Assembly: GCA_025210735.1 (NCBI GenBank)
Contig: JAOARD010000069.1
Location: 62,001-126,000, forward strand
Length of the DNA: 64,000 nt
Origin: Bacteroidales bacterium
GTDB lineage: Bacteria; Bacteroidota; Bacteroidia; Bacteroidales; UBA6680
Direction of reading: 5' to 3'
Position numbers and translations under genes: made by a program. Shown here one piece after another: positions 3,876-21,844 of this stretch. Within the stretch, counting starts at the first letter, position 1. Each line of letters begins with the position of its first letter. The notes under the pieces are model-generated. The model saw nothing but the letters and a program-made list of their open reading frames with translations. It was not told where the DNA came from and did not search any database.

Positions 3876-4892
3876 TTACAGCGTAATTTTCTGTAGCTTC
3901 TTGTAAAAAGCTTCTTCAGCGTCGGCAATATTCATTAACAGATCTGATACCTGTTTATAATTCTCGCCCTGATTCTCTCTCATTTTTACAAGTCTTGCTG
4001 TTGTTGCGGCAAAATCTCTCCACATATCACCTATCTTTGTCATCTCTACCGACATCTCTTTAAGCCAGTCTTGTTTCATATATCCTGCAGCCTCCTGAAG
4101 AAATGCAGCATACATGAATCTGAAACCTGCTCCTCCTGTACCAATCTCTTCCTGAGCTCTTACAATTTGTCCGGCAAATAACGATGCTTTTCTTGTGCCC
4201 AGTTTATCAGGGTATTTAGCAATTTTCTTTGCCATAAATCTGATACCTTTAACTCCGAACATGCCAACAGGAATTGTAAGCATATCTTTACAGGTTTTTT
4301 TAATACCTTTTACAATAGCATCGTTAATATCAATATTTTCGGGGATATGTTTTACATAGTACATATGCCCTTTTGGAGCAAAAAGTCCTTTGGCATATCG
4401 TACCCTCTGAAGTTCTTTATATGATAGTTTCTCAAAGCCCTCCATTACAGGATCGCTTATTAAATAATCTCCGTTCTTTTTTCCGTATGCTACAAGGTTG
4501 TGCGCATTAAAATGGAAACGATAAGGTGCCGGAAAGTACGACAGGTGGTATACACCAACCAACATACCTACAGGTCTGTTTTGTGTTATTACCTCATCAA
4601 GAGCTTCCATTGCCTTATGAGGATTTTTATATCTTCTTCTTTCAAATTGAATACCTAATCTTTTAGATACTCTTTTAAATATAATGCCTGGTAGTGGTCT
4701 GAATGATGTAACAGGGATACCATCTACCTTTACAAATGGCATATGAGAAAAGAACATTCCTGAACCAATACCAAATATCATAGGTTCGCTAAGTTCTATT
4801 CCGTAATATCTTAACAGGTTAGATACAACACCGTTTTCGCAGTGTGCAGATTGTTTATGTTTAAAGTCTAAAACTATTTCGTTATTCGGCAT
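3876..4892 (-). CDS. BtrH N-terminal domain / DUF4872 family protein, probable acyl-transfer enzyme
   Basis: A 338-residue protein starting with a BtrH-like segment: Cys18 in SAHCENG, and a His/Asn set in FHFNAHNLVAYG followed by YLISDP, which recalls a cysteine-peptidase-like fold. BtrH of butirosin biosynthesis transfers an acyl chain from a carrier protein to an amino group; the same domain is common in flexirubin-type clusters, where its substrate is unknown. The helical C-terminal half (about 190-338) matches the DUF4872 layout. The start overlaps the upstream HTH-like gene by 11 bases, implying coupled translation. The family call is confident; the reaction is inference. Confidence 0.82.
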   Translation of the reverse strand: MPNNEIVLDFKHKQSAHCENGVVSNLLRYYGIELSEPMIFGIGSGMFFSHMPFVKVDGIPVTSFRPLPGIIFKRVSKRLGIQFERRRYKNPHKAMEALDEVITQNRPVGMLVGVYHLSYFPAPYRFHFNAHNLVAYGKKNGDYLISDPVMEGFEKLSYKELQRVRYAKGLFAPKGHMYYVKHIPENIDINDAIVKGIKKTCKDMLTIPVGMFGVKGIRFMAKKIAKYPDKLGTRKASLFAGQIVRAQEEIGTGGAGFRFMYAAFLQEAAGYMKQDWLKEMSVEMTKIGDMWRDFAATTARLVKMRENQGENYKQVSDLLMNIADAEEAFYKKLQKITL

Positions 4893-5313
4893 TATTTACA
4901 CTCTCCAATTTTAATAAAGACAGATCCTTAAGCTCTTCAACAGTGATATCAAATGTATCAGCATACTTTTTTAGTTTCTCATCAGACAGTTTTATAAACG
5001 ATTTATATTTCATGTGTCGTTTTACTGTTAAAGTGAAGAAACCAGTGTACTGACTAAGTAGCTTAGGACTCATTATGTTTTTCTCCATATAGTAAGCAAT
5101 AGGACTAAGTTTTTTGTCCAGAACCTTAAGTCTTACCTCATCTATTTTTGATGATATATTGCTCCAGGCTTGTTGCATAACAATATTTTTGGCTTCCCAG
5201 CCAACACTTTTTATTGTAGTGTAATTGCCATTTTCATCTACAGCATAGCAAGGCTCTTTTAGCTTGCCATCTAACATATTAGCGTCGTCCTGAGGTACCT
5301 CGTTAACTTTCAT
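4882..5313 (-). CDS. conserved pigment-cluster protein with an HTH-like C-terminus, function unknown
   Basis: A 143-residue soluble protein without signal peptide or membrane helix. The C-terminal part (about 70-135, from LSPIAYYMEKNIM through FFTLTVKRHMKY to LKKYADTFDITVEELKDL) has the spacing and closing motif of an XRE-type helix-turn-helix, where the last helix normally reads like VSVDELL. The N-terminal part, including SVGWEAKN, matches nothing I can name. I recall similar proteins beside BtrH-like genes in flexirubin clusters. Its overlap with the BtrH-like gene suggests a shared role, either as a local regulator or, if the fold is reused, as a partner protein. Confidence 0.65.
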   Translation of the reverse strand: MKVNEVPQDDANMLDGKLKEPCYAVDENGNYTTIKSVGWEAKNIVMQQAWSNISSKIDEVRLKVLDKKLSPIAYYMEKNIMSPKLLSQYTGFFTLTVKRHMKYKSFIKLSDEKLKKYADTFDITVEELKDLSLLKLESVNNAE

Positions 5314-5330: not shown

Positions 5331-5750
5331 TTATTCCTGCAGAAAAATGTTCATCTCACACTCTGCTATAATATCGTTGTTCTGTTCAACTCTTCCTTTA
5401 ATAATTGATACATTACCAACCTTTTGTTGAGTATCTACTGTTGTAACAATATCAGTGCCAACAGCTACTCTCTTATATATCTTTAATCTCTTTACTGATC
5501 CAATAAAGCCTACAGGAGCTTCTTTGTTCTCTCTTTGTGCTATAACACCAACACTTGCAGCGGCAGTTTGGGCAATGTTTTCTATTAGTCCCGACTCATA
5601 AAAGTAGTTGTCGTCGCAAAATATGTTATTGCGTAAAATGCTTAGTCCCGAAACGCATGTGTTTTCATCACAGGAATACAGCTTATCAATCATTACCATT
5701 GGTGGTCTTTGAGGGATAAGCTGTAGTATATTTTCTCCTTCTGCTATCAT
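5331..5750 (-). CDS. ApeP/FabZ-like 3-hydroxyacyl-ACP dehydratase
   Basis: A 139-residue hotdog-fold protein. The opening LIPQRPPMVMIDKL matches the LxPHRPPMxxxD motif of ApeP-type dehydratases, and Glu57 in GLIENIAQTAAA corresponds to the conserved acid on the central helix. It would dehydrate 3-hydroxyacyl-ACP during polyene extension, giving conjugated double bonds. The motif has Gln14 where most relatives have His. Its ATG overlaps the TAA of the upstream secreted protein by one base (TAATG at 5752-5748), so the two are probably translated together. Confidence 0.82.
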   Translation of the reverse strand: MIAEGENILQLIPQRPPMVMIDKLYSCDENTCVSGLSILRNNIFCDDNYFYESGLIENIAQTAAASVGVIAQRENKEAPVGFIGSVKRLKIYKRVAVGTDIVTTVDTQQKVGNVSIIKGRVEQNNDIIAECEMNIFLQE

Positions 5751-6097
5751 TAATCAATTTTCAGTTTTGCGGTTTTAGATCCAAACTTGTTACATTTGGC
5801 CTTTACCTTAATTAAATCACCTGATTTTAAATCTTTCAGGATCATTGTTTCTGTGTGTTTCTCTTTTCCTGTCTGTTCTGATGGTTTTAACTTAGATATC
5901 TCTTCACCATTTTTGTATATTACAATAGCATCAATATAGTGCGATGTTGCTTCTTTTACTGAGTGTATAATCTCAATTGTTAAAACTGCACTCTCTTTAT
6001 TGTATTTTGCAATAACCTTTTTAGGCGGATGAGCCTCGGTAACTGAAGATAGTCCTAAGAATGTTATTAAAACCAATAGAATCTTAAATTTTCTCAT
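5750..6097 (-). CDS. secreted desulfoferrodoxin-like (superoxide-reductase-like) domain protein
   Basis: A 115-residue protein with a Sec signal peptide (residues 1-22, cleavage after TEA, before HPPKK). The mature part looks like the small beta-sandwich of superoxide reductase: His45 in IIHSVKEA, His53 in TSHYIDAIVIYKNG, and Cys102 in KCNKFGSK, laid out like the HPM..EHYIEWI..LY and CNxHG signature of desulfoferrodoxin. The second CN-loop histidine is replaced by Phe, so iron binding may be changed. It is exported, unlike classical cytoplasmic superoxide reductase. Role unknown; an electron carrier or redox sensor for pigment chemistry is possible. It is coupled to the dehydratase gene by a TAATG overlap. 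Confidence 0.6.
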   Translation of the reverse strand: MRKFKILLVLITFLGLSSVTEAHPPKKVIAKYNKESAVLTIEIIHSVKEATSHYIDAIVIYKNGEEISKLKPSEQTGKEKHTETMILKDLKSGDLIKVKAKCNKFGSKTAKLKID

Positions 6098-6207
6098 GAT
6101 GTATAAATTTTAAATTAATATTGTTTTAACATCGTTTTAGCTGCTAATGTTCGTTAAGCAGATCTCTATCTTCTAATTTACAATAAGATATCTTAGTATT
6201 TATATTA

Positions 6208-6387
6208 TTAGTAGAAATATTGCAGATATACAATTACTCCACCATGTAACGAAGCTAATAAGAGTGTAAGCAATCCAAGTTTTTTATGGATACCATGTTT
6301 TACCTTTATTACCCTCATTCCGGTTAGTACAGTAATCAATAATGATATAAATGCACTTATTCCTAATATAAATATCAGATCAGACAT
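6208..6387 (-). CDS. small membrane protein with histidines at a helix edge (59 aa)
   Basis: An ATG at 6387, nine bases after the darB-like stop, opens a 59-codon frame ending at TAA 6210-6208. The protein has two predicted transmembrane helices: about residues 4-24 (starting LIFILGISAFI) and 37-57 (LGLLTLLLASLHGGVIVYL). Between them is VKHGIHKKLG, with His31 and His34 at the helix boundary and His48 inside the second helix, an arrangement like heme-binding b-type membrane proteins. It lies between darB and the desulfoferrodoxin-like gene, so the two may form a small redox pair. The frame and position are seen; heme binding is inference. Confidence 0.62.
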   Translation of the reverse strand: MSDLIFILGISAFISLLITVLTGMRVIKVKHGIHKKLGLLTLLLASLHGGVIVYLQYFY

Positions 6388-6396
6388 ACTATTTAA

Positions 6397-7539
6397 TTAT
6401 ACTACAGTTAACATTATATATGAATATGCAAATCTGGCGCTTTCCGGTACCATAACCAGAATCTTTTCACCTTTCTGCAATTTTCCGCTGTTAAATAACT
6501 CTTCAAGCATAAATAGTGCTGAGCCAGATCCAAGATTTCCAATCTTTGGCAGATTCAGAAACCATTTATCTTCCGGAATATCAACTCCGTTTTTCTTTAG
6601 CTCTTCTTCTATTCTCTCTTTGAAAAACATTGACGACAGGTGTGGCAGGAAATAATCTACCTCACTGCTTATATCTATATTACGTTTTTCAATTATGTCT
6701 GCAAGAAATTTCATTCCTATAGGAACAATGTTTGACCCCAGAGTTTTGACATCTTGTTTTAAAGCAAAAACACTTTTGTCAACTAACTCTTCAGGCGAAT
6801 GTTCTGCCCATCCTATAAGATCGCCGTTATCATCTTTTACTGCTCCTGCATACATACAGGTTTTAAGCTCATTTGCATATGATCTTACATCAAGCCAGTC
6901 TATCTTAAGTGATAACCCGTTGCTGTTTGGTTTATCCTGAAGCAGAGCTGCCGCTGCACCGTCAGACAACATCCATCTTAAGAAATCTTTCTCAAATGCT
7001 ACATAAGGGTTTTCCTCAATTTCAGCAAGTTTATCTACCTCTTTCTGAAAATGACGGGCATTCATACGTGTTGAGAATCTTTCAGATCCGGTTACAACAG
7101 CGTTTGAGCTATTACCCGTTTGTATTGACATAAGTGCGTACTTAAGAGAAACCATACCTGAGTTACACGTTCCTCCTGCAGACATTATCTCTATTGGCTT
7201 ACATCCTAATTCACCATGTACCATTGATGAGTGAGAAGGCTGTAACTGATCCGGAGAGCTGGTACTGCAAGCAAGTAGCTGAATATCGTCAAGCGAAAAT
7301 CCGTTATTGAAAAGTCCTTTAACAGCCTCAGAAGTTAACTGAGCATTTGTGTGTGTTACTTTTCCGTTTTTATCTACTGCATAGTAACGTTGCTTAATCC
7401 TGTTACTGCGTAGAACCAGATTTTTAGACTTTGAAGGCTTGCCATTTATATATCCCAGATAATCCTCTATCTCATCGTTTGATACAGGATTATTTGGTAA
7501 AAATTTTGACAATTTGGTTATATATACCTCTTTAAGCAT
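6397..7539 (-). CDS. darB: FabH-like ketosynthase, DarB family (dialkylresorcinol biosynthesis)
   Basis: A 380-residue condensing enzyme of the KAS III class. The triad is Cys125 in GGTCNSGM, His300 in FLPHLSS and Asn335 in KIGNLGSGS. KAS III enzymes are usually about 320 residues; the longer form and the adjacency to the flavodoxin-like DarA identify it as a DarB type. DarB condenses two acyl units (a beta-ketoacyl and a 2,3-unsaturated acyl thioester) to a cyclohexanedione, which DarA aromatises to the resorcinol that esterifies flexirubin polyenes. It starts four bases after the darA stop. The name rests on context and length; an ordinary KAS III starter enzyme is the alternative. Confidence 0.8.
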   Translation of the reverse strand: MLKEVYITKLSKFLPNNPVSNDEIEDYLGYINGKPSKSKNLVLRSNRIKQRYYAVDKNGKVTHTNAQLTSEAVKGLFNNGFSLDDIQLLACSTSSPDQLQPSHSSMVHGELGCKPIEIMSAGGTCNSGMVSLKYALMSIQTGNSSNAVVTGSERFSTRMNARHFQKEVDKLAEIEENPYVAFEKDFLRWMLSDGAAAALLQDKPNSNGLSLKIDWLDVRSYANELKTCMYAGAVKDDNGDLIGWAEHSPEELVDKSVFALKQDVKTLGSNIVPIGMKFLADIIEKRNIDISSEVDYFLPHLSSMFFKERIEEELKKNGVDIPEDKWFLNLPKIGNLGSGSALFMLEELFNSGKLQKGEKILVMVPESARFAYSYIMLTVV

Positions 7540-7543
7540 GTTA

Positions 7544-8476
7544 TTATTTTTCTTTTAATTCACAACTTGTGTAATATCTCTTCTTCTTTAATATAAGCGG
7601 GAAAAACAATGGATATGTAACATATACCACTAATGAAGCTATAGGAGATAATACAATTATTACAGCAAAAAGATAATATTTGAATATCTTAACCCACTTC
7701 TCTCTGATCTTGTCACCCTTTTTTGCTTTCTTAAGAATGATATTAGACCATATATTAAATATTCTTTTGGCTTTTAACTCCATTGAAGCAATATCCGGCA
7801 GATAATCAATAGCTTTAGCTTTCAGCATATTGTTCTGTAGATTGGTAAAGTCATTACTTTTTAGAGCCTCAAGAATTATAGCACCAAATCTTGAACTATC
7901 TTTTATATCTACGTCAGATACACCAGGTTTTGGGAATATTCCCTTTTTAGTTTTTTGTCCGGTAAACATCCAATGTACAATACTACCAACGCTCATAAGG
8001 TTCTGATGTTTGTCTCGCAGAACAATATTTCCAACAAGATTCCCATCTATATCTTTTATAAGCTTTTTTATATCCTCTTGTGCAGCAGCCCACATATTTC
8101 TGCTGCCAATTACAGTAACAATATTCTGTTTAGAGAGCAATTTTTTTCCGTAATCGCTCTTTAAAAAAGATGTTATTGGTATTGCTGGTGACAGGTACCA
8201 GATTGGATATCCTAATATTACAAGATCCCATTTTTTATCAGCATTATTTGCTGGATAATCTAAAGAACATGGTATCCCCTGAACTGATTCTGGCATTACA
8301 TTGAAAAATGACTTTGCAGTCCACGGAAAAGGATATTTCTCTGTTGGCATAATCTCTTCCCAGGTTATATTGCACTCACCGTGCATGTTAGTAACCAGGT
8401 TTTCAAGAATCTGCTTCATCTGACCAGACTGACTGTAGTATACAATAAGAATATCCTTTTTCATATTATTTAGCAT
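7544..8476 (-). CDS. darA: dialkylresorcinol condensing/aromatising enzyme DarA, flavodoxin-like
   Basis: A 310-residue protein beginning with a flavodoxin-like fold: ILIVYYSQSGQMKQI forms the phosphate-binding loop, DLVILGYPIWYLSPA the flavin-contact strand and VTVIGSRNMWAAAQ the last core strand. The C-terminus has one or two hydrophobic segments (about 265-297) followed by lysines, so it probably sits at the inner membrane. This layout matches the DarA family that acts with DarB. It starts at 8476, or possibly at the internal ATG four codons later (8464). It precedes darB by four bases and follows the acyltransferase after a 64-base gap. Confidence 0.82.
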   Translation of the reverse strand: MLNNMKKDILIVYYSQSGQMKQILENLVTNMHGECNITWEEIMPTEKYPFPWTAKSFFNVMPESVQGIPCSLDYPANNADKKWDLVILGYPIWYLSPAIPITSFLKSDYGKKLLSKQNIVTVIGSRNMWAAAQEDIKKLIKDIDGNLVGNIVLRDKHQNLMSVGSIVHWMFTGQKTKKGIFPKPGVSDVDIKDSSRFGAIILEALKSNDFTNLQNNMLKAKAIDYLPDIASMELKAKRIFNIWSNIILKKAKKGDKIREKWVKIFKYYLFAVIIVLSPIASLVVYVTYPLFFPLILKKKRYYTSCELKEK

Positions 8477-9707: not shown

Positions 9708-10931
9708 TTAGTTTTTATATCTCTTTACGATAAGTGTAGAATTTGTTCCTCCAAATCCAAATGAGTTTGAAAGGAATGTATCGATATTATGTTCAATTCG
9801 TTTGTTCGGTATATTCAGGTTTTTTGAATATTCATCCGGGTTCTCGAAGTTAATATTTGGCGATATATATCCGTTCTGCATCATTAATGTAGAGTAGATA
9901 ATCTCACTGGCACCCCCCATCCACATCTCGTGTCCGGTTAAACACTTTGTTGATGTAATTGGAGGTCTGAATTCACCAAATACCTTATCAAGAGCTTGTG
10001 CCTCATTCATATCTCCAACAGGAGTAGATGTTGCATGAGCGTTTACATAGTCAATATCTTTTGCTGTAACGTTAGCATCATTAAGAGCTTTCTCAAGCGA
10101 CGATACCGGACCATCTACATTTGGCACTGATATATGATCGCCATTAGAAGAGAAACCATAACCAACAACCTCTGCAATAATGTTAGCCCCGCGTTCAAGT
10201 GCAGATTCTAGACTCTCAATTATTACAGTTGCAGCTCCTCCACTAGGTACAAGTCCGTCTCTGTCTTTGTCAAAAGGTCTGCTGGCCTTGTGCGGATCAC
10301 TCTCTCTTGTTGAGAATGCACTTAATCCGTCAAAACTTCCGGTTGATTCAGGATTTACCTCTTGTGCACCTCCGCATATTATCATTTTCTGTAAACCTTG
10401 CTTTATTAAGAAGTAACCAAGACCTATAGCATGCGATCCGCTTGCACAGGCACCACTTACAGTAAGGTTGATACCTTTAAGCTTAAGTATTACAGACAGG
10501 TTCATTGTAACAGTTGAGTTCATAGACTGAAAGATAGATCCACTACCCAAAAGGGTTGTATCTTTCTTCTCTCGCATCATGTCCATAGCATCAATTACAG
10601 GTACAGCTGAGCTATCGTTTCCGTATAATATACCTACCTCATTTTTCTCAAGATAGTCGTCGTCTATACCAGCATTGGCAAGGGCTTCTTTTGTTGCAAC
10701 AACAGCATATTCTCCCTGTTCAGGTAATCCAACTCGCATACGTCTAGACAGAACTTTTTTAAGATTAGGACGCTCAATAAGACCTGTTAGTGCCGAACGA
10801 AACCCCATCTCTTTTCTTCTTGGATCTATTCCAATTCCAGACTTACCTTCATATAACGATTTATTTACCTCTTCTATATTCGATCCTAAAACCGAATAAA
10901 TCCCCATTCCTGTAATAACAACTCTATTCAT
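9708..10931 (-). CDS. beta-ketoacyl-ACP synthase II (FabF-like)
   Basis: A 407-residue elongating ketosynthase of full family length. The triad is Cys162 in SGACASGSH, His299 in NAHATSTPVGD and His334 in LTGHEMWMGGASE. The segment GDHISVPNVDGP is typical of FabF-like enzymes. It is the first of two elongation-type ketosynthases in the operon and lies between fabG-like and ACP genes, making a compact reductase-synthase-carrier block. Given the setting it is probably dedicated to the pigment rather than to primary fatty-acid synthesis, but the sequence alone does not exclude the latter. Confidence 0.9.
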   Translation of the reverse strand: MNRVVITGMGIYSVLGSNIEEVNKSLYEGKSGIGIDPRRKEMGFRSALTGLIERPNLKKVLSRRMRVGLPEQGEYAVVATKEALANAGIDDDYLEKNEVGILYGNDSSAVPVIDAMDMMREKKDTTLLGSGSIFQSMNSTVTMNLSVILKLKGINLTVSGACASGSHAIGLGYFLIKQGLQKMIICGGAQEVNPESTGSFDGLSAFSTRESDPHKASRPFDKDRDGLVPSGGAATVIIESLESALERGANIIAEVVGYGFSSNGDHISVPNVDGPVSSLEKALNDANVTAKDIDYVNAHATSTPVGDMNEAQALDKVFGEFRPPITSTKCLTGHEMWMGGASEIIYSTLMMQNGYISPNINFENPDEYSKNLNIPNKRIEHNIDTFLSNSFGFGGTNSTLIVKRYKN

Positions 10932-10960
10932 ATTGTCCAGTTTTATTCAGGTTACTAAAA

Positions 10961-11689
10961 TTATGTATAAAGACCACCATTAACAGAGATAACTTCTCCT
11001 GTGATATATGAGGCTCCTTCAGAAGCTAGAAATCCTACAACAGCAGCAACCTCTTCTGGTTTACCAAATCTGTTAGCTGGAATCATTTTCTTAAGCATCT
11101 TCTCGTCAAGATCTTCTGTCATATCGGTTTTAATAAACCCGGGTGCCACGGCATTAACAGTAACCTTCTTTTTAGCAATCTCCTGAGCTAATGCTTTTGT
11201 AGCACCAATAACTCCGGCTTTTGCAGCAGAGTAGTTTGTTTGTCCTGACATACCTTTTAATCCGGATAGTGAAACAACATTAACTATTCTGCCATATTTG
11301 TTCATCAACATATCTGTTGTAAGCTCTCTTGTTACATTAAAGAAAGAGTGAAGGTTTGTGTTAATAACATCATCCCACTCGTCATCTTCCATCATCGGAA
11401 GAATATTATCTTTACGTATTCCGGCATTATTTACGAGAACCTCAATATACTTATCGCTATTTTTCTCTTTCCAGTCAGAAAGGGCTTTTCTTATATTGGT
11501 TCTGTCTGAAACATCAAAAGGTAAAAGTTCTCCGTCAGAACCCAGTTCTTTAACCTCATTTAATGTGTTCTCTGCCTCTGTGGTGTTTGATCTGTAATTT
11601 ATTATTATATAGTAACCCATGGCAGCAAGCTTAAGGCATACAGCCTTACCTATACCACGAGAACCACCTGTAACAAGTGCTATTTTCAT
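10961..11689 (-). CDS. 3-oxoacyl-ACP reductase, FabG-like SDR
   Basis: A 242-residue short-chain dehydrogenase/reductase. It has the NADP(H)-binding TGGSRGIG at residues 7-14, NNAG at 87-90, and the catalytic Ser140, Tyr153 and Lys157 (YSAAK). It reduces 3-oxoacyl-ACP to the 3-hydroxy form, which the dehydratase at 5331-5750 then converts to the enoyl form. The gene starts 143 bases after the lyase stop and is 29 bases from the KAS II gene. No promoter box is obvious in the 143-base gap, but the gap holds an inverted repeat (GAACAGA at 11708-11714 with TCTGTTC at 11730-11736). Confidence 0.92.
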   Translation of the reverse strand: MKIALVTGGSRGIGKAVCLKLAAMGYYIIINYRSNTTEAENTLNEVKELGSDGELLPFDVSDRTNIRKALSDWKEKNSDKYIEVLVNNAGIRKDNILPMMEDDEWDDVINTNLHSFFNVTRELTTDMLMNKYGRIVNVVSLSGLKGMSGQTNYSAAKAGVIGATKALAQEIAKKKVTVNAVAPGFIKTDMTEDLDEKMLKKMIPANRFGKPEEVAAVVGFLASEGASYITGEVISVNGGLYT

Positions 11690-13715: not shown

Positions 13716-14105
13716 ATGACAAGAGATATTATACATAATAACGTAACTATATTCAGCAGATGGAGCAGAAAAAGCTATTCACTATTTGCTGCAATAGGTA
13801 AGGTTGTGCATATCGGGCATCTGAAATCTGATATGCTTATTAGTATTGCTGATATTATCTCGGGGCTGATAACATTTACGGAACCACAACAGAAGTCAGA
13901 AGATGATGATTATGACGAAGATGTTGTATCTGAAAATGAACAAATTTCTTTATTAATACAAACCTCTGTTTGTAATGATAGCTCTTGTTCCAGTAGTAGC
14001 TTAAATATCATTTCAGGAAACTCTTTTACCAGACAACAAAAGGTATTAGGGGGTAGTTTTATTCAATTTTTATCACACATTTATTATGACTGTTTCAGAA
14101 CTTAA
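13716..14105 (+). CDS. protein of unknown function leading the biotin operon (129 aa)
   Basis: The N-terminal 50 residues are basic and ordered (IFSRWSRKSYSLFAAIGKVV, then HIGHLKSDM), while the middle is very acidic (DDDYDEDV) and the end is Ser/Cys-rich. No signal peptide or membrane helix is evident, and I do not recognise a family. Its end overlaps the bioB start by 20 bases, and a -7 box sits just before its ATG, so it seems a real first gene of the operon. It could be a small regulator, a partner protein or a translated leader that controls bioB; none of these is shown by the sequence. Confidence 0.5.
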   Translation: MTRDIIHNNVTIFSRWSRKSYSLFAAIGKVVHIGHLKSDMLISIADIISGLITFTEPQQKSEDDDYDEDVVSENEQISLLIQTSVCNDSSCSSSSLNIISGNSFTRQQKVLGGSFIQFLSHIYYDCFRT

Positions 14106-15057
14106 AGGGATGGTTATGCAGGGATATAGCATAACGTTTGAAGAGGCTATGTATTTATGTAATACAAGCAATAAAGAGGAGTTGTTTAAGGCTGCTGGTG
14201 AGATCAGGGATAGATTTAGCGGAGATAAATTTGATACCTGTTCTATAATGAATGCCAGATCGGGTAAGTGTTCTGAGAACTGTAAATGGTGTTCACAGTC
14301 GGCACATCATAACACAGGTGTAACAGAGTACGATATAGTTGATAAAAAAGAGGTGCTTGCTCAGGCTAAACAGAACGATAAATATGGTGTAAACAGGTTC
14401 TCACTTGTAACCAGTGGTAAAGCACTTGATAATGCCAGATTAGAAAAACTTCTTCCGGTTTATGATGAGATAAAACGTGAAACTAATCTGCATATGTGTG
14501 CATCAATGGGATTGTTAAAAAGAGAGCAATTGCAAAAGCTAAAAGACAGAGGTGTAGGACACTATCACTGTAATATTGAGACATCGCCATCGTATTTTGA
14601 TAAACTGTGTACAACCCATACATTTGAACAGAAGGTACAGACAATAAAGTGGGCTCAGGAGGTTGGTCTTAAGGTATGTTCAGGAGGTATTATTGGTATG
14701 GGAGAAACTATGCAACAAAGAGTTGAGATGGCTTTTGAGCTTAAAAAACTTGGTATAAAGTCGATACCTATTAATATACTTAACCCTATTGAGGGAACAC
14801 CACTTGCCGGATCAGATAAGGTAACAGATGAAGAGATACTTACAATAATTGCTGTTTTCAGATTCATTAATCCTGATGCTTACCTTAGATTTGCAGGTGG
14901 ACGTGATCAGATTAAACATATTGAAGATAAGGCTTTAAAAGCAGGAATTAATGCTGCTCTGGTTGGCGATCTTCTTACAACAATAGGGTCTGATGTTAAT
15001 ACAGATTTTAGTAATTTTAAAGAAGCAGGCTTTAATACAAGCAGAGAAAACTTATAA
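14086..15057 (+). CDS. bioB: biotin synthase
   Basis: A 323-residue radical SAM enzyme that inserts sulfur into dethiobiotin. The radical SAM cluster cysteines are Cys62, Cys66 and Cys69 in KCSENCKWCSQS. Further conserved segments are CSIMNARSG, HYHCNIETSP and CSGGIIGMGE, which hold ligands of the second iron-sulfur cluster, and YLRFAGGRDQI near the end. Length is normal for the family. It is followed by bioA after 15 bases. The ATG at 14086 overlaps the preceding small gene; no better start lies downstream before the conserved core. Confidence 0.97.
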   Translation: MTVSELKGMVMQGYSITFEEAMYLCNTSNKEELFKAAGEIRDRFSGDKFDTCSIMNARSGKCSENCKWCSQSAHHNTGVTEYDIVDKKEVLAQAKQNDKYGVNRFSLVTSGKALDNARLEKLLPVYDEIKRETNLHMCASMGLLKREQLQKLKDRGVGHYHCNIETSPSYFDKLCTTHTFEQKVQTIKWAQEVGLKVCSGGIIGMGETMQQRVEMAFELKKLGIKSIPINILNPIEGTPLAGSDKVTDEEILTIIAVFRFINPDAYLRFAGGRDQIKHIEDKALKAGINAALVGDLLTTIGSDVNTDFSNFKEAGFNTSRENL

Positions 15058-15072
15058 CTCTATTTTGCAGTA

Positions 15073-16353
15073 ATGACAACAAAAGAACTATTAGATTTTG
15101 ACCGTAATCATATATGGCATCCGTACACTTCTGCGACTAACCCTTTAGATGTATATCCTGTAGATAGCGCTAAGGGTTGTACAATAAAACTGACTGATGG
15201 CAGAGAGCTGATAGATGGTATGTCGTCATGGTGGTCGGCAATACACGGGTATAATAATCCTGAGATAAATCAGGCTATAAAGGATCAGGTTGATAAGATG
15301 TCGCATATTATGTTTGGTGGTTTAACCCATAGTCCGGCAGTTGAGCTGGCTCAAAAGCTGGTTAAAATAACCCCTGATGGATTGGATAATGTGTTTTTCT
15401 GCGATTCAGGATCGGTATCGGTTGAGGTGGCTATGAAGATGGCATTACAGTATTGCCATGCTTCAGGCAACAAGAGTAAAACTGAATTTCTGACTATTCG
15501 TAACGGATATCACGGCGATACATGGCATGCAATGTCGGTTTGTGATCCTGTTACAGGAATGCACTCACTGTTTAATAACAGGCTTAATATACAGAACTTT
15601 GTTTCGCAACCAAAGGTAAGATATGGTTATGAGTGGGATGATAGTGATTTTGAAGAGATGTTTAAGGCTTTAGAGAATAGGGCGGACAAACTTGCGGCTG
15701 TAATTTTGGAACCTGTTGTTCAGGGAGCCGGAGGAATGTGGTTTTATCACCCTGAATATCTTAGAAAACTATCAAAAGCTTGTAAGGAGTTTAATGTTCT
15801 GCTGATATTTGATGAGATAGCAACAGGGTTTGGACGAACCGGAGAGATGTTTGCAATGAATCATGCCGGAGTTGTACCAGATATTCTGTGTCTTGGAAAA
15901 GCAATTACAGGCGGATATATGAGTTTTGCAGCTACCATGTGTTCAAAGAAAGTTGCTCATGTGATATCATCAGAAGAGCCATATGTATTTATGCATGGAC
16001 CAACATTTATGGGAAACCCACTGGCATGTAGTGCAGCTTGCAAGAGTATTGATATACTAATTGACAGCAACTGGAAAGAGAAGGTAGATAATATAGAAAA
16101 GAATCTTAACCGGATGCTGGATAAAGCACGCAGTTTAGAAGGTGTTAATGATGTGCGGGTTTTGGGGGCTATAGGTGTTATAGAGATGAAAAATCCTGTT
16201 GATATGAAGACTATACAGCCAAAATTTGTTGAAGAGGGTATATGGATTCGTCCGTTTGGAAAGAATGTATATACAATGCCTCCGTATATAATATCAGATA
16301 GTGAACTGGAATTTCTTACAGAGAAAATGATAAAGGTTATTTCTGAGATATGA
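15073..16353 (+). CDS. bioA: adenosylmethionine-8-amino-7-oxononanoate aminotransferase
   Basis: A 426-residue class III PLP aminotransferase. It opens with HIWHPYTS, a substrate-binding signature of BioA, and shows [21 protein letters not shown], the PLP-phosphate contact [13 protein letters not shown] and Lys276 in [10 protein letters not shown] as the Schiff-base lysine. It makes 7,8-diaminononanoate from KAPA with S-adenosylmethionine as amino donor. Its stop overlaps the bioF start by four bases (ATGA at 16350-16353), indicating coupled translation. Confidence 0.97.
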
Positions 16354-17483
16354 TAGATACAGATTATTATAAAAGTGAACTGGAACAACTAAAACAGAGT
16401 AGTGCATACAGAGAGCTTATATATAAAAAAACCGGATATATTGATATGTCTGGTAATGATTACCTTGGTATAGCAGCAAACCCGAACTTGTATAATGAGT
16501 TTTGCAATAATTTTCTTTCTGATCAGGAGTACAAGATGGGAGCTTGCTCATCCAGATTACTGAGTGGGAACCATATGGCAGCAGAGAAGCTTGAGCAGTG
16601 GTTTGAGCAGTGGTACGGAAGACCTTCATTATTGTTTAATAGCGGATACCATGCAAATACAGGCATGCTTCCTGCGTTAACATCTGCAAATCATTTTATT
16701 GTAGCCGATAAAATGGTACATGCAAGTATGATTGATGGAATAAGGTTAAGTAAAGCAAAGTTTGAGCGATTTAAACATAACGACATAAATCATCTTATCA
16801 GAATACTTGAAAAAAACAGATTGTATAGCGGAAAGATAGTTATAGCTGTTGAGTCAGTGTATAGTATGGATGGAGATGTAGCCCCATTAGAGGAACTTGT
16901 TGATATAAAAAACAGGTATAATGCTATGCTTATTGTTGATGAAGCACACGGGTTTGGTGTATTTGGAGATACTGGTAAAGGGCTATGTGAGCAATTAGGG
17001 GTAACAGATCAGGTTGATATTATTGTAGGAACGTTGGGAAAAGCAGCATCGTCAGTAGGTGCATTTGCTGTGTGTTCAGAACTAATTAAGAACTATCTGA
17101 TAAATAAGATGCGTTCATTAATTTTCTCAACAGCACTGCCTCCTATAAATAATATGTGGTCGTTATATACTACTAAGCTTATAACAGATATGCAAAAAGA
17201 GCGGAAACAACTTAAATGTGTTTCTGATATGTTGCGTAAGGAGATAACAGAAGCAGGCTTTTCAAGCTGTGGTGCCTCACAGATTGTACCGCTTATTGCA
17301 GGATCAAATGAGAAAGCTCTGGAGTTGTATAGTATGTTTGATAATGACAGTATTGATGCCCGTCCTGTACGATATCCTACAGTTCCAAAGGGTTCTGAAC
17401 GAATACGTTTTTCACTTTCGGCAGCACATACTGCAGAGGATATAAATGCTATTAAGAAGGTATTAAAACGAATAAAGCATTAA
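16350..17483 (+). CDS. bioF: 8-amino-7-oxononanoate synthase
   Basis: A 377-residue alpha-oxoamine synthase that joins pimeloyl-ACP and alanine to form KAPA. It has the NDYLG motif near residue 36, [22 protein letters not shown] and the PLP lysine Lys231 in [13 protein letters not shown]. It overlaps bioA by four bases and is followed by bioG after four. Other alpha-oxoamine synthases (Kbl, serine palmitoyltransferase) are closely related, but the operon settles the role. Confidence 0.95.
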
Positions 17484-17487
17484 TTGT

Positions 17488-18144
17488 ATGCGGATAGACT
17501 GGTGTAATAAAAAAGGAAATGACAAACTTATTCTGTTTTTCAACGGATGGGGGTTTGATACCAAAATGTTTAAAGAGTTCAATCATCAGAGTTATGATGT
17601 TTTGATGTTTTATCAGTATAACTCATCAGAGTTAAATGATATGCCGGATATCTCATCATATAAAGAGGTATATGTTGTAGCATGGTCGTTGGGTGTGTTT
17701 ATGGCACAATATATTATTAAAAATATTGAGATTAAAAAGGCTATTGCTATAAACGGAACACTTAACCCGATAGATGATAACAGAGGAATACCAGAGAGTA
17801 TTTTCAGAGGTACAATAGATAATCTTACTGAGCGAAATCTATATAAATTTAATGCACGATTGTTTGGTGGAGTAAGGAGTTATGATGAAAATCTGTTACC
17901 AAACGGAGATTACAAAGAGCGAAAGGTTGAGTTGGAGTGGTTATACAACACTATAAAAAGTAGCGATTGTAGTGAAAAAAATATATTCTCAAGAGCTGTT
18001 ATATCTGAAAAAGACATGATCTTTACATTGCAGAATCAAAGTACTGCGTGGAGTAACAGTGTTAATGATATAGTTTATGTAAACGGGGCACATTTTATAT
18101 TCCGAAGTATGGATAATTGGGACTCTGTAATTGGAGGCCTTTAA
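17488..18144 (+). CDS. bioG: pimeloyl-ACP methyl ester esterase BioG (DUF452)
   Basis: A 218-residue alpha/beta hydrolase. FFNGWGFD near residue 17 forms the oxyanion region, Ser67 in VVAWSLGVF is the nucleophile and His in NGAHFIFRS near the C-terminus completes the triad. BioG replaces BioH in several bacteria: it removes the methyl group from pimeloyl-ACP methyl ester, ending the BioC-initiated route to pimelate. The order bioA-bioF-bioG-bioC-bioD is that known from Bacteroides-type operons. Confidence 0.93.
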   Translation: MRIDWCNKKGNDKLILFFNGWGFDTKMFKEFNHQSYDVLMFYQYNSSELNDMPDISSYKEVYVVAWSLGVFMAQYIIKNIEIKKAIAINGTLNPIDDNRGIPESIFRGTIDNLTERNLYKFNARLFGGVRSYDENLLPNGDYKERKVELEWLYNTIKSSDCSEKNIFSRAVISEKDMIFTLQNQSTAWSNSVNDIVYVNGAHFIFRSMDNWDSVIGGL

Positions 18145-18165
18145 ATTATTTATGAATAGATACAG

Positions 18166-18948
18166 ATGAACAGAGAGTATAAATCAGAAAATTGTTGTAT
18201 AAATAAGAGCCTGATAAAGGAGCGGTTTCAGAATAGTTTTGAGACCTACAATTATGAAGCTTATGCCCAAAAGGAGATAAACAAAATCCTTATTGATATG
18301 GCAAGTGGCAATTGTATTAGTCCTGAAGCTATTTTTGAGATAGGTTGCGGAACAGGGATTCTTACAGACTTAATATGTAATACGTATAATCCTGATAAAT
18401 TATATATTAATGATCTCGTAGATGACGCTGAGATATACCTAAACAAGGTTATTGATAACAGATGCAGTTTTGATTTTATTCCCGGAGATATTGAGCATGT
18501 GCAATTTCCTTCTGAAACAGACTTAATAATGTCTGGATCGGCACTACAGTGGGTTACTGATTTTGATAGCTTTATTAATAAAGCATCAGATAGTCTTAAC
18601 AGAAATGGTTACCTGATATTTAATACGTTTGATAGTGGTAATTTTAAAGAGATAAAACATATTACAAAATCGGGAATTAATTACCTGCCTGTTGATGACC
18701 TTAAAATATCATTGGCAAAAGAGTTTGATATTTTAAGTATTAAAAGCGAAGAGATAAAGCTATATTTTAATTCGCCGCGCGATGTACTAAGACATATAAA
18801 GCGTACCGGAACAAATGCTATATCAAGAAAACGATGGACTCCTGCCGACTTTAACCATTTTGAGCATGAGTACAGACGATTGTTTTATTCAGAGAAAGGG
18901 TTTGTATTAACATATAACCCTCTGTACGTAGTAGCAAAGAAGCGATAA
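18166..18948 (+). CDS. bioC: malonyl-ACP O-methyltransferase
   Basis: A 260-residue SAM-dependent class I methyltransferase. Residues from about 60 carry IFEIGCGTGILT (motif I), followed by LYINDLVDDAE and MSGSALQWVTDF. BioC methylates malonyl-ACP so that it can be elongated as a pimelate precursor by the fatty-acid machinery; BioG then removes the methyl group. It starts 21 bases after bioG, and the 90-base gap to bioD holds nothing recognised. Confidence 0.95.
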   Translation: MNREYKSENCCINKSLIKERFQNSFETYNYEAYAQKEINKILIDMASGNCISPEAIFEIGCGTGILTDLICNTYNPDKLYINDLVDDAEIYLNKVIDNRCSFDFIPGDIEHVQFPSETDLIMSGSALQWVTDFDSFINKASDSLNRNGYLIFNTFDSGNFKEIKHITKSGINYLPVDDLKISLAKEFDILSIKSEEIKLYFNSPRDVLRHIKRTGTNAISRKRWTPADFNHFEHEYRRLFYSEKGFVLTYNPLYVVAKKR

Positions 18949-19038
18949 ACAGGTATGGATGCTGATAATTATAAGTCTATTTGAGGATGACTATAAGATT
19001 GAGTTCCATTTGACCATTGAGAAGAAAAAATAAACAAG

Positions 19039-19731
19039 ATGAAGAGAGCCAACTATATGTTTGTAACAGGAATAGATACCGATGCAGGAAAGAGTATTGT
19101 AACAGGATTGTATTATAAATATCTACTTAGCAAGAGTGAGAAAGTTATAACATTTAAAGCAATACAGACGGGTTGTAAAGATATTGCAGAGGATATTGTT
19201 ACTCATAGAGAGATAGCTGGCGTTAAACTTACCAAAGAGGATATTAATGGCGAAACCTGTCCGTATCTGTTTAATCATCCGTGTTCACCACATCTTGCAG
19301 CACAAATAGAGAACCGGATAATTGATCCGCACAATATTATAAAAGCTGCCAATAGACTTTCAGACAGGTATGATAAAATTGTGATTGAGGGAGCAGGAGG
19401 ATTAATGGTTCCAATTACCGGACAATACACCTCTGCCGATTTTGTTAAAGATTACAGAATCCCTGTTCTTCTGGTAACATCATCAAAGCTTGGTAGTATA
19501 AATCATACACTGCTTACACTTGAGTATATTAAAAGCAGAGGGATTGAGCTTTCTGGTATTATCTATAATGATTTTCCGAATAACGACACTATTATTACTG
19601 ACGATTCATACAGAGTAATATCAGATTTTGCAGAGAAGATGTTTTGTGATGTTCCTGTGTTAAGAGTACCTGTTGTTGATGATAGTAATAGCTGTAATAC
19701 AGATTGGGGTCTTATTAAAAAATGGCTGTAG
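19039..19731 (+). CDS. bioD: ATP-dependent dethiobiotin synthetase
   Basis: A 230-residue P-loop enzyme. The modified Walker A is GIDTDAGKS at residues 11-19, and VIEGAGGLMVPI is the second conserved block. ATQTGCK-like substrate contacts appear as AIQTGCKD. It closes the ureido ring of dethiobiotin from diaminopelargonate, CO2 and ATP. It is the last gene of the biotin operon; no hairpin terminator with a T-run was found in the 180 bases after it. Confidence 0.95.
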   Translation: MKRANYMFVTGIDTDAGKSIVTGLYYKYLLSKSEKVITFKAIQTGCKDIAEDIVTHREIAGVKLTKEDINGETCPYLFNHPCSPHLAAQIENRIIDPHNIIKAANRLSDRYDKIVIEGAGGLMVPITGQYTSADFVKDYRIPVLLVTSSKLGSINHTLLTLEYIKSRGIELSGIIYNDFPNNDTIITDDSYRVISDFAEKMFCDVPVLRVPVVDDSNSCNTDWGLIKKWL

Positions 19732-19910: not shown

Positions 19911-21209
19911 ATGTTTATACCAGAGATTGAAAAATGCTCTAAATCAGATATTAGAGCATATCAAGAGGATCGATTAGCAGAGTTGTTGGTATACCTGAAA
20001 AATCACTCTAAATTCTATCAGAATCTATTTAAAGATAATAATATTGATATAAGAGATATTAAAACATTGGATGACCTTGTAAAGGTTCCTGTAACTACAA
20101 AAGATCATCTGCAGAATCAGAATTCAGATTTTTTATGTGTCCCTAAAAATAAGATTGTTGACTACACAACAACATCAGGTACGCTTGGCGATCCGGTTAC
20201 ATTTGCTCTTACAGATAAAGATATTGATCGTTTAGCATATAACGAGTACATATCGTTTGCCTGTGCCGATGGCTCTGATGAGGATATATTTCAGCTGATG
20301 GTAACAATGGACAGACGATTTATGGCTGGCCTGGCTTACTACTCAGGTATCAGAAAGCTTGGAGCAGGTATAGTACGTGTTGGACCTGGTAACCCGGGAT
20401 TGCAGTTTGATACAATAAACAGAATAAAACCAAATGCTTTTATTACTGTTCCATCGTTCTTGTTAAAGCTTATTGAGTATGCAGAGAAGAATGGAATTGA
20501 TTATCGTAATACATCGATTAAAAAGGCTGTATGTATTGGTGAATCAATAAGAACTCCTGATTTTGAGCTAAACCCGTTAAGCAGACAGATTAAGGATAAG
20601 TGGGATATTAAACTATACTCTACCTATGCCTCAACCGAGATGGGTACAGCGTTTACTGAGTGTGGTCAGGGTAAAGGAGGTCATCATCATCCGGAGATGA
20701 TAATTGTTGAATTTCTGGATGAGAACGATATGCCTGTTAAAGATGGCGAAGCCGGAGAGGTTACAATTACTACCCTTGGTGTTGAGGCAATGCCGCTGTT
20801 ACGTTTTAAAACAGGAGATATATGTTACCACTATACAGATAAGTGTGAGTGTGGAAGAAACACGGTACGTCTTGGGCCAGTTATTGGGCGTAAAAAACAG
20901 ATGATAAAATATAAAGGAACAACACTTTACCCTCCTGCACTATATGATCTTCTGAACGATTTTCAGGATATAGAGAACTATATTGTAGAGGTATCAACAA
21001 ATAGTATAGGAACAGATGATATATTAATTAATGTTGGAAGTAAAAATATATCAGAATCGTTTGAGAAGAGGATTAAAGATCATTTTAGGGCTAAGTTAAG
21101 AGTTGCCCCAACTGTTAAGTTTGAGAAGATAAGTGATATTTATAAAAAGCAGTTCCCTGAAATGAGCAGAAAACCTATAACATTTATAGATAATAGAGAC
21201 AAGAATTAA
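19911..21209 (+). CDS. phenylacetate-CoA ligase-like adenylate-forming enzyme
   Basis: A 432-residue PaaK-type member of the ANL superfamily. The AMP-binding loop is TTTSGTLGDPV, followed by YSTYASTEMG and LRFKTGDI; the C-terminal subdomain includes GRKKQMIKYKGTTLYP. Cysteines in CYHYTDKCECGRN resemble the metal site of PaaK enzymes. Members activate aryl or acyl carboxylates as adenylates and then thioesters. Flexirubin-type clusters use such an enzyme to load 4-coumarate, and the lyase lies only 6.5 kb away across the biotin operon, so a loading role is plausible. A catabolic phenylacetate role is less likely, because no paa genes are near. Confidence 0.85.
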   Translation: MFIPEIEKCSKSDIRAYQEDRLAELLVYLKNHSKFYQNLFKDNNIDIRDIKTLDDLVKVPVTTKDHLQNQNSDFLCVPKNKIVDYTTTSGTLGDPVTFALTDKDIDRLAYNEYISFACADGSDEDIFQLMVTMDRRFMAGLAYYSGIRKLGAGIVRVGPGNPGLQFDTINRIKPNAFITVPSFLLKLIEYAEKNGIDYRNTSIKKAVCIGESIRTPDFELNPLSRQIKDKWDIKLYSTYASTEMGTAFTECGQGKGGHHHPEMIIVEFLDENDMPVKDGEAGEVTITTLGVEAMPLLRFKTGDICYHYTDKCECGRNTVRLGPVIGRKKQMIKYKGTTLYPPALYDLLNDFQDIENYIVEVSTNSIGTDDILINVGSKNISESFEKRIKDHFRAKLRVAPTVKFEKISDIYKKQFPEMSRKPITFIDNRDKN

Positions 21210-21238: not shown

Positions 21239-21844
21239 ATGAAAAAGCTAGTACTAACACTATTTGTTATTTGCACCTTCGGTTTGTTGTCGTCAAACGC
21301 TCAGAAGATAAGAGTAACAGATGGAGATTTATCTCTGCTAAAAGGTCAAAAACTTATAAACCTGGAGTTTACGTACAACGACCTTAAAGTAGGTAAGATG
21401 TCAGAGCAGGATTATCTTGACAGAAAGGTAAAGGATTACAATAAAAAAGAGGCCGGACGTGGCGAGAGATTTCTTGAGTCGTGGAAAGGTGACAGAGAGA
21501 CAAGGTATGAGGTTAAGTTTATGGAGTTGCTAAGCAAATATCTTGTTCGTAAAGGAACAGAGGTTGATACTGATGTTAAAAATTCGGAGTATAAGATGGT
21601 GATAAATACATTCTTTATTGAGCCGGGATTTAATATTGGTATTACAAGACGTAATGCTGCTGTAAGTATGACTATTGATGTATATAAGACCTCAACAAAC
21701 GAGAAGGTTGCTACAGTAACAATAAAGAACTCTCCGGGAACATCAATGGGTAACGATTATGATACAGGTGAGCGAATTAGTGAGGCTTACGCTAAAGCAG
21801 GTAAGTCGTTTGCAAAGTTCCTGTTAAAGAAAAAATATATTTAA
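21239..21844 (+). CDS. secreted protein of unknown function
   Basis: A 201-residue protein with a signal peptide (about residues 1-21, cleaved before QKIRV). The mature part has alternating hydrophobic residues suggesting a mixed alpha/beta fold, with MVINTFFIEPGFNIG and AAVSMTIDVYKT as likely strands. I do not recognise a named domain; the look is that of Bacteroidota periplasmic proteins with a C-terminal DUF4410-like strand pattern. It starts 29 bases after the ligase and ends at a terminator, so it may be cotranscribed with it. Confidence 0.7.
   Translation: MKKLVLTLFVICTFGLLSSNAQKIRVTDGDLSLLKGQKLINLEFTYNDLKVGKMSEQDYLDRKVKDYNKKEAGRGERFLESWKGDRETRYEVKFMELLSKYLVRKGTEVDTDVKNSEYKMVINTFFIEPGFNIGITRRNAAVSMTIDVYKTSTNEKVATVTIKNSPGTSMGNDYDTGERISEAYAKAGKSFAKFLLKKKYI

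Follow-up and report, generated by a model that had tools for sequence, protein, structure and literature searches.

An exported desulfoferrodoxin-fold protein and a small membrane protein encoded as a conserved pair within a flexirubin operon of Bacteroidales

Described flexirubin clusters and the operon in the window

Flexirubins serve as a chemotaxonomic marker for Bacteroidota, and we know of no account of the late, envelope-side steps of their pathway. We analyzed a 64,000-nucleotide stretch of a Bacteroidales genome (the window) whose operon proved to be a flexirubin biosynthetic cluster, as DarB, DarG, DarH, TAL-like and FlxY-like genes are all there. With the flexirubin/DAR clusters of Chitinophaga pinensis and Flavobacterium johnsoniae, as given in the main text of PMC3992019, it has in common TAL, FlxY, darA/darB, ketosynthases, a reductase and a dehydratase. 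In contrast, the two genes studied here, which encode an exported protein of 115 residues (P1) and a membrane protein of 59 residues (P2), have no counterpart named as a pair in that main text, to which the comparison is confined. An earlier note on this DNA knew of no such pair in described flexirubin clusters; likewise, we saw none in the main-text descriptions of PMC3992019, PMC3949708 and PMC9248904, and a literature search found no paper naming flexirubin together with desulfoferrodoxin. A comparable arrangement is known from MsrPQ-type pairs, in which a membrane haem-type protein is encoded beside an exported redox protein, as P2 would be beside P1 if it carries the haem proposed below. 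However, the periplasmic partner P1 is unrelated to that of MsrPQ, and the membrane part P2 is much smaller.

The genes of the operon follow one another on the minus strand in the order DarA, DarB, P2, P1, FabZ-like dehydratase, DarG, DarH, ABC transporter genes, thioesterase and ketosynthase. DarA (7544..8476), named from its position and the described cluster layout, has a flavodoxin-like N-terminal part (Flavodoxin_4, E=1.8e-4, below cut-off) and a hydrophobic C-terminal stretch. DarB, the dialkylresorcinol ketosynthase (6397..7539), scores 582.7 bits with NF053539 against a cut-off of 550. The 3-hydroxyacyl-ACP dehydratase (5331..5750) matches FabZ models at E=4e-11, below cut-off. DarG (4882..5313) passes the DarG_fam model NF053536 and reaches 169.7 of the 170 bits set for NF053545, and DarH, a BtrH-related acyltransferase (3876..4892), scores 481 bits with NF053550, above its cut-off of 300. 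The FlxY-like acyl-CoA ligase of the pigment set, recognized by the AMP-binding Pfam family, lies on the plus strand (19911..21209). Between it and that end of the pigment operon which carries TAL stands a biotin operon (14086-19731, plus strand) with bioB, bioA, bioF, a BioG-type esterase, a methyltransferase and bioD, named by eye except that BioG was confirmed by Pfam.

Both members of the pair are in the list of open reading frames, P1 at 5750..6097 and P2 at 6208..6387 on the minus strand, and thus lie between darB and the dehydratase gene, where the earlier note had placed them. Its claim that P1 is coupled to the dehydratase also holds, since the stop codon of P1 and the ATG of the dehydratase share TAATG (minus strand GAT TAA TG ATA). 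P2 begins 9 bp after darB, and 110 bp separate P2 from P1. This intergenic stretch (6098-6207) is well conserved in the congener G002, where it measures 109 bp, and may contain a promoter or regulatory element. Comparison with G002 gave dN/dS values of 0.048 for P2 and 0.12-0.19 for P1, next to 0.04-0.06 for DarB, the dehydratase and DarG; both genes are under purifying selection. Because dN/dS is low and homologues exist in several other families, P1 and P2 are real genes and not chance reading frames. That the pair is part of the operon, as first proposed, is supported, and the two genes are conserved as a pair across families.

An exported sandwich protein with an incomplete iron site

The iron site of superoxide reductase (SOR) consists of four equatorial histidines and one cysteine (PMC3116461). 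The N-terminus of P1 resembles a signal peptide, with a likely cleavage, read by eye, before H23. The AlphaFold2 model of P1, built from 20 aligned sequences (pLDDT 85), predicts a sandwich of seven strands, as in the centre II domain of desulfoferrodoxin, neelaredoxin and SOR (PF01880). When the model was used as a Foldseek query, SoxYZ/SoxZ proteins and superoxide reductases came out on top at E of 1.5e-3 and above; Giardia 1Fe-SOR aligned with TM scores of 0.59/0.69, and neelaredoxins were among the top matches at E of about 5e-3. Since the E values were only 1.5e-3 and above, the likeness is one of fold and not of close relationship. By sequence, P1 stays below all family cut-offs in Pfam and NCBIfam: PF01880 gave no match to the window protein up to E=1, and its matches to two homologues (L059, E=0.055; L064, E=0.063) are below cut-off. 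A single-sequence search against solved structures found no relative, and an 11-row alignment returned chance-level matches only (ribosomal L25, designed proteins and others). The link to SOR was obtained through sister proteins and the fold search, not through a sequence search with P1. SoxZ of SoxYZ is the best structural match to P1, yet P1 does not qualify as a SoxZ: the NCBIfam model scored 15.6 bits (E=0.011) against a cut-off of 76, and the neighbouring genes examined include neither SoxY nor sulfur-oxidation genes.

Across 37 homologues (P1 group and sister group combined), residues H45, H53 and C102 do not vary. In the SOR pattern H...HYI ... CNxHG they align with histidines two and three and with the axial cysteine of the iron site, the asparagine after C102 included. 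Unlike SOR, P1 is exported and keeps two of the four histidines besides the cysteine, because the segment with the first histidine is missing and the last is replaced by F, M, I, V or W in all P1 proteins. Superoxide reduction by P1 is therefore doubtful. Histidine is the predicted mature N-terminus in 7 of 10 members (residue 23 in the window; L059, L061, L062, L064, L067, L069), and it is possible that H23, which stands right at the presumed cleavage site, is an extra metal ligand that partly substitutes for those lost. We dropped the idea that H23 is the first SOR histidine itself, as the alignment puts the missing residue about seven positions earlier, in a segment absent from P1. The genome of the window encodes a separate SOR with the full HTP ... 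SHP ... HYI ... CTNHG pattern and no evident signal peptide; therefore P1 is not the standard superoxide reductase of the cell. An Fe-type SOD is encoded as well. Two further candidates for P1 were rejected: a class-level match in G903 is an ExbD-like protein, and a weak match in G644 is a separate desulfoferrodoxin of lipoprotein type.

P1 is a remote protein of the desulfoferrodoxin/SOR-SoxZ fold with an incomplete iron site. The earlier description of it as desulfoferrodoxin-like was right as to the fold, but with two of the four iron-ligand histidines missing P1 is no plain desulfoferrodoxin.

A membrane protein with two invariant histidines

In the ferric reductase domain superfamily with NOX, FRE, STEAP and MsrQ/YedZ (PF01794), a transmembrane helix carries two histidines about 14 residues apart; in NOX2, where the spacing is 14, these are His101 and His115 of TM3, at the cytoplasm-proximal and the surface-proximal haem, respectively (PMC3591440). 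P2 is modelled as a helical hairpin with helices 2-23 and 31-58 (pLDDT of the best model 94.5), and its residues H34 and H48 are spaced as in NOX2, 14 residues apart, within the second predicted helix. Together with G23, they are invariant in all 24 homologues. P2 had been described as a two-helix protein with three histidines; the two helices are supported by the model, but the third histidine, H31, is a trait of the genus and is not conserved.

P2 matches Ferric_reduct (PF01794) over the helix with H34 and H48 at E=0.0023 and 18.4 bits, below the cut-off of 28, and no family model in Pfam or NCBIfam exceeds its cut-off. Sequence searches against solved structures found no convincing homologue (only Sec61 and, weakly, STEAP1), and neither did the fold search; P2 was linked to no solved haem protein by either. 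Furthermore, a single chain in the superfamily comprises about six helices, of which TM3 and TM5 bear the histidines, whereas P2 has two helices and two histidines per chain. By analogy, the H34/H48 pattern suggests a candidate minimal haem-b hairpin, and because a single chain supplies half the ligands, P2 would have to dimerize for haem binding. The basic loop R25-K36 would face the cytoplasm by the positive-inside rule. The sandwich of P1 and the hairpin of P2 are modelled structures, and the haem and metal are putative.

Distribution of the pair and its possible roles

We found strong P1 matches in 11 of the 393 genomes of the order and DarG in 58; nine genomes have both. Thus 9/11 P1 genomes are DarG-positive, compared with 58/393 overall (Fisher test, 8e-7), and by genus DarG occurs in 6/8 P1 genera compared with 37/206 (5e-4), in both tests with shared ancestry not fully removed. 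P2 and P1 are adjacent in the window, G002, L059, L062, L064, L065, L066 and L070, and in the six loci from other families 11-73 bp lie between the two genes. The pair co-occurs across families, as the earlier note had suggested checking, and recurs beside flexirubin genes. The order darB-P2-P1-dehydratase recurs in another family (L065, L066), and darA-darB-P2-P1 is common to these two loci and the window. In a third family (f153), darB, P1 and the dehydratase follow one another without P2 (L061, L069), and whole-genome searches of G494, G736 and G740 did not find P2 despite the presence of P1. G001, from the genus of the window, has a pigment operon in which DarB adjoins the dehydratase and the pair is absent; P2 was not found anywhere in that genome. 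A gap of 525 bp separates the dehydratase from DarG in its locus L078 (7045-7570).

Genomic settings vary. In G029 polyene KS/ACP/AT genes stand about 1.5 kb away from the pair, in G535 the pair lies elsewhere, and in G733 and G635 it is present while DarG was not detected. Unrelated neighbours include peptidases and GSCFA (L064), a polysaccharide deacetylase/glycosyltransferase (L070) and an M20 peptidase (L062). L003 was discarded as a pigment-free context, since the larger stretch L059 shows polyene KS/ACP/AT/dehydratase genes about 1.5 kb off, with an M20 peptidase between. This conserved module is accessory and no fixed part of the pigment pathway.

The same P2 is linked to a sister group of exported Dfx-like proteins, three of which (L071, L073, L111) pass the PF01880 cut-off. 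The sister group aligns with solved superoxide reductases and, unlike P1, keeps the last histidine (CNxHG); the first is absent in both groups. A profile scan of genome contigs with the sister group gave 21 named loci, almost all of them in MAGs of Bacteroidales or Bacteroidetes. P2 adjoins the Dfx-like gene in 15 of them; clear pigment genes lie within the fetched stretch in 14, and 5 more are short contigs with a partial set. A frequent order is B12 radical SAM, Dfx-like and P2, followed by the gene of a secreted protein of 204 aa and, after it, by DarH/DarG and TAL; a homologue of the FlxY-like ligase stands just upstream of the pair in L110/L132 and L128. L131 has the module with no clear pigment genes nearby, and in L133, an Aminicenantes MAG, the pair lies beside an SLC13-type permease (named by eye). 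Within the order, 7/8 sister-group genomes are DarG-positive, an enrichment that describes this subfamily and not all desulfoferrodoxins, the query having been taken from pigment loci.

Several neighbouring genes deserve mention. After the FlxY-like ligase the window encodes a secreted-looking 201-aa protein of no Pfam family (21239-21844, plus strand), a homologue of which lies just downstream of Dfx-like and P2 in about ten Bacteroidales loci (e.g. L114, L117, L124, L126), and which may be a further member of this module. A B12-binding radical SAM gene, a candidate ring methylase, is found in the flexirubin operon near the acyltransferase in L059 (4521-5873), L065 (from 12732), L066 (from 2444) and L073 (from 3522), and is missing at that position in the window. 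L073 also has a second, divergent DarG/DarH pair (9910-11483; about 29% and 37% identical to those of the window) near ACP, radical SAM and Dfx-like genes.

Our main reading, to which we give a probability of about 45%, is that P2 and P1 form an envelope electron-delivery module recruited by flexirubin clusters, which brings reducing power to P1 and protects the pigment or its precursor in transit. P2 would enter the membrane as a hairpin whose basic loop faces the cytoplasm, and two copies would associate in such a way that one b-haem is held by the two H34 residues and another by the two H48 residues, like TM3 and TM5 in ferric reductases. Menaquinol or a cytoplasmic flavin would supply electrons, which would pass through P2 to P1. 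P1 would carry a mononuclear metal at H45/H53/C102 and spend them on periplasmic superoxide or other oxidized species, so shielding the polyene or resorcinol during its passage to the outer membrane. The place in the operon, the conservation, the recurrence next to pigment genes and the invariant residues are observed, whereas we infer the haem, the metal, the dimer, the transfer from P2 to P1, its direction and its substrate. The finding of cytochrome bd but no COX1-type oxidase in the organism also fits this reading. The main weakness is that P1 occurs without P2, which weakens any obligate relay. The pigment operon of G001 without the pair, the two SOR histidines lost from P1, the complete SOR and the Fe-type SOD encoded in the same genome, and the Pfam match of P2 below cut-off likewise count against it. 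A more specific proposal, possible but on the doubtful side, is that P2, as a minimal two-helix homodimeric di-haem b protein, feeds the exported P1, whose desulfoferrodoxin fold would hold a metal at a reduced His2Cys site. The two would make up a very small transmembrane conduit of ferric-reductase type, which aryl-polyene pathways would have taken up on several occasions for a redox step in the periplasm that is not known from accounts of flexirubin biosynthesis.

The gene order darA-darB-P2-P1 in the window, L065 and L066 could instead reflect an electron sink, in which DarA, a flavodoxin-like aromatase, passes electrons from resorcinol aromatization to the cytoplasmic haem of P2 and on through P1 to a periplasmic acceptor, permitting O2-free aromatization at low oxygen. 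The annotation of DarA as DAR aromatase in the main text of PMC3949708, the weak flavodoxin match of the window DarA, and the presence of cytochrome bd in an organism where a COX1-type oxidase was not found fit this scheme. We nevertheless consider it unlikely: sister modules adjoin FlxY, B12 radical SAM or thioesterase/KS genes and not darA-darB, the module is absent from G001 and many other DarA-DarB clusters, and P1 can occur without P2. An equally improbable view is that the pair serves redox or stress functions of the envelope in general, has no role specific to the pigment, and came to lie within or close to pigment clusters through chance or co-regulation. Wide occurrence without pigment genes had been named as an argument against a pigment role, and it applies in part, as the pairs in L062, L064, L070 and L133 lie beside unrelated genes; yet the strong enrichment in DarG-positive genomes and the repeated, variously arranged placement within flexirubin gene sets speak against this view. 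We think it quite improbable that P1, instead of accepting electrons, binds a metal or ligand and acts as a SoxZ-like scaffold, a chaperone in the export or assembly of the pigment, with P2 as a membrane anchor or docking peptide. SoxYZ as best Foldseek match and the operons with P1 alone agree with it, whereas invariance at H45, H53 and C102 of P1 and at H34, H48 and G23 of P2 is the pattern of cofactor ligands, and the SoxY partner was not seen among the neighbouring genes examined.

If the main reading is right, a conserved exported redox protein and its tiny partner in the membrane would indicate that the flexirubin pathway includes a redox step, or a means of protection, in the periplasm, and P2 is a candidate of unusually small size for electron transfer by haem across the membrane.
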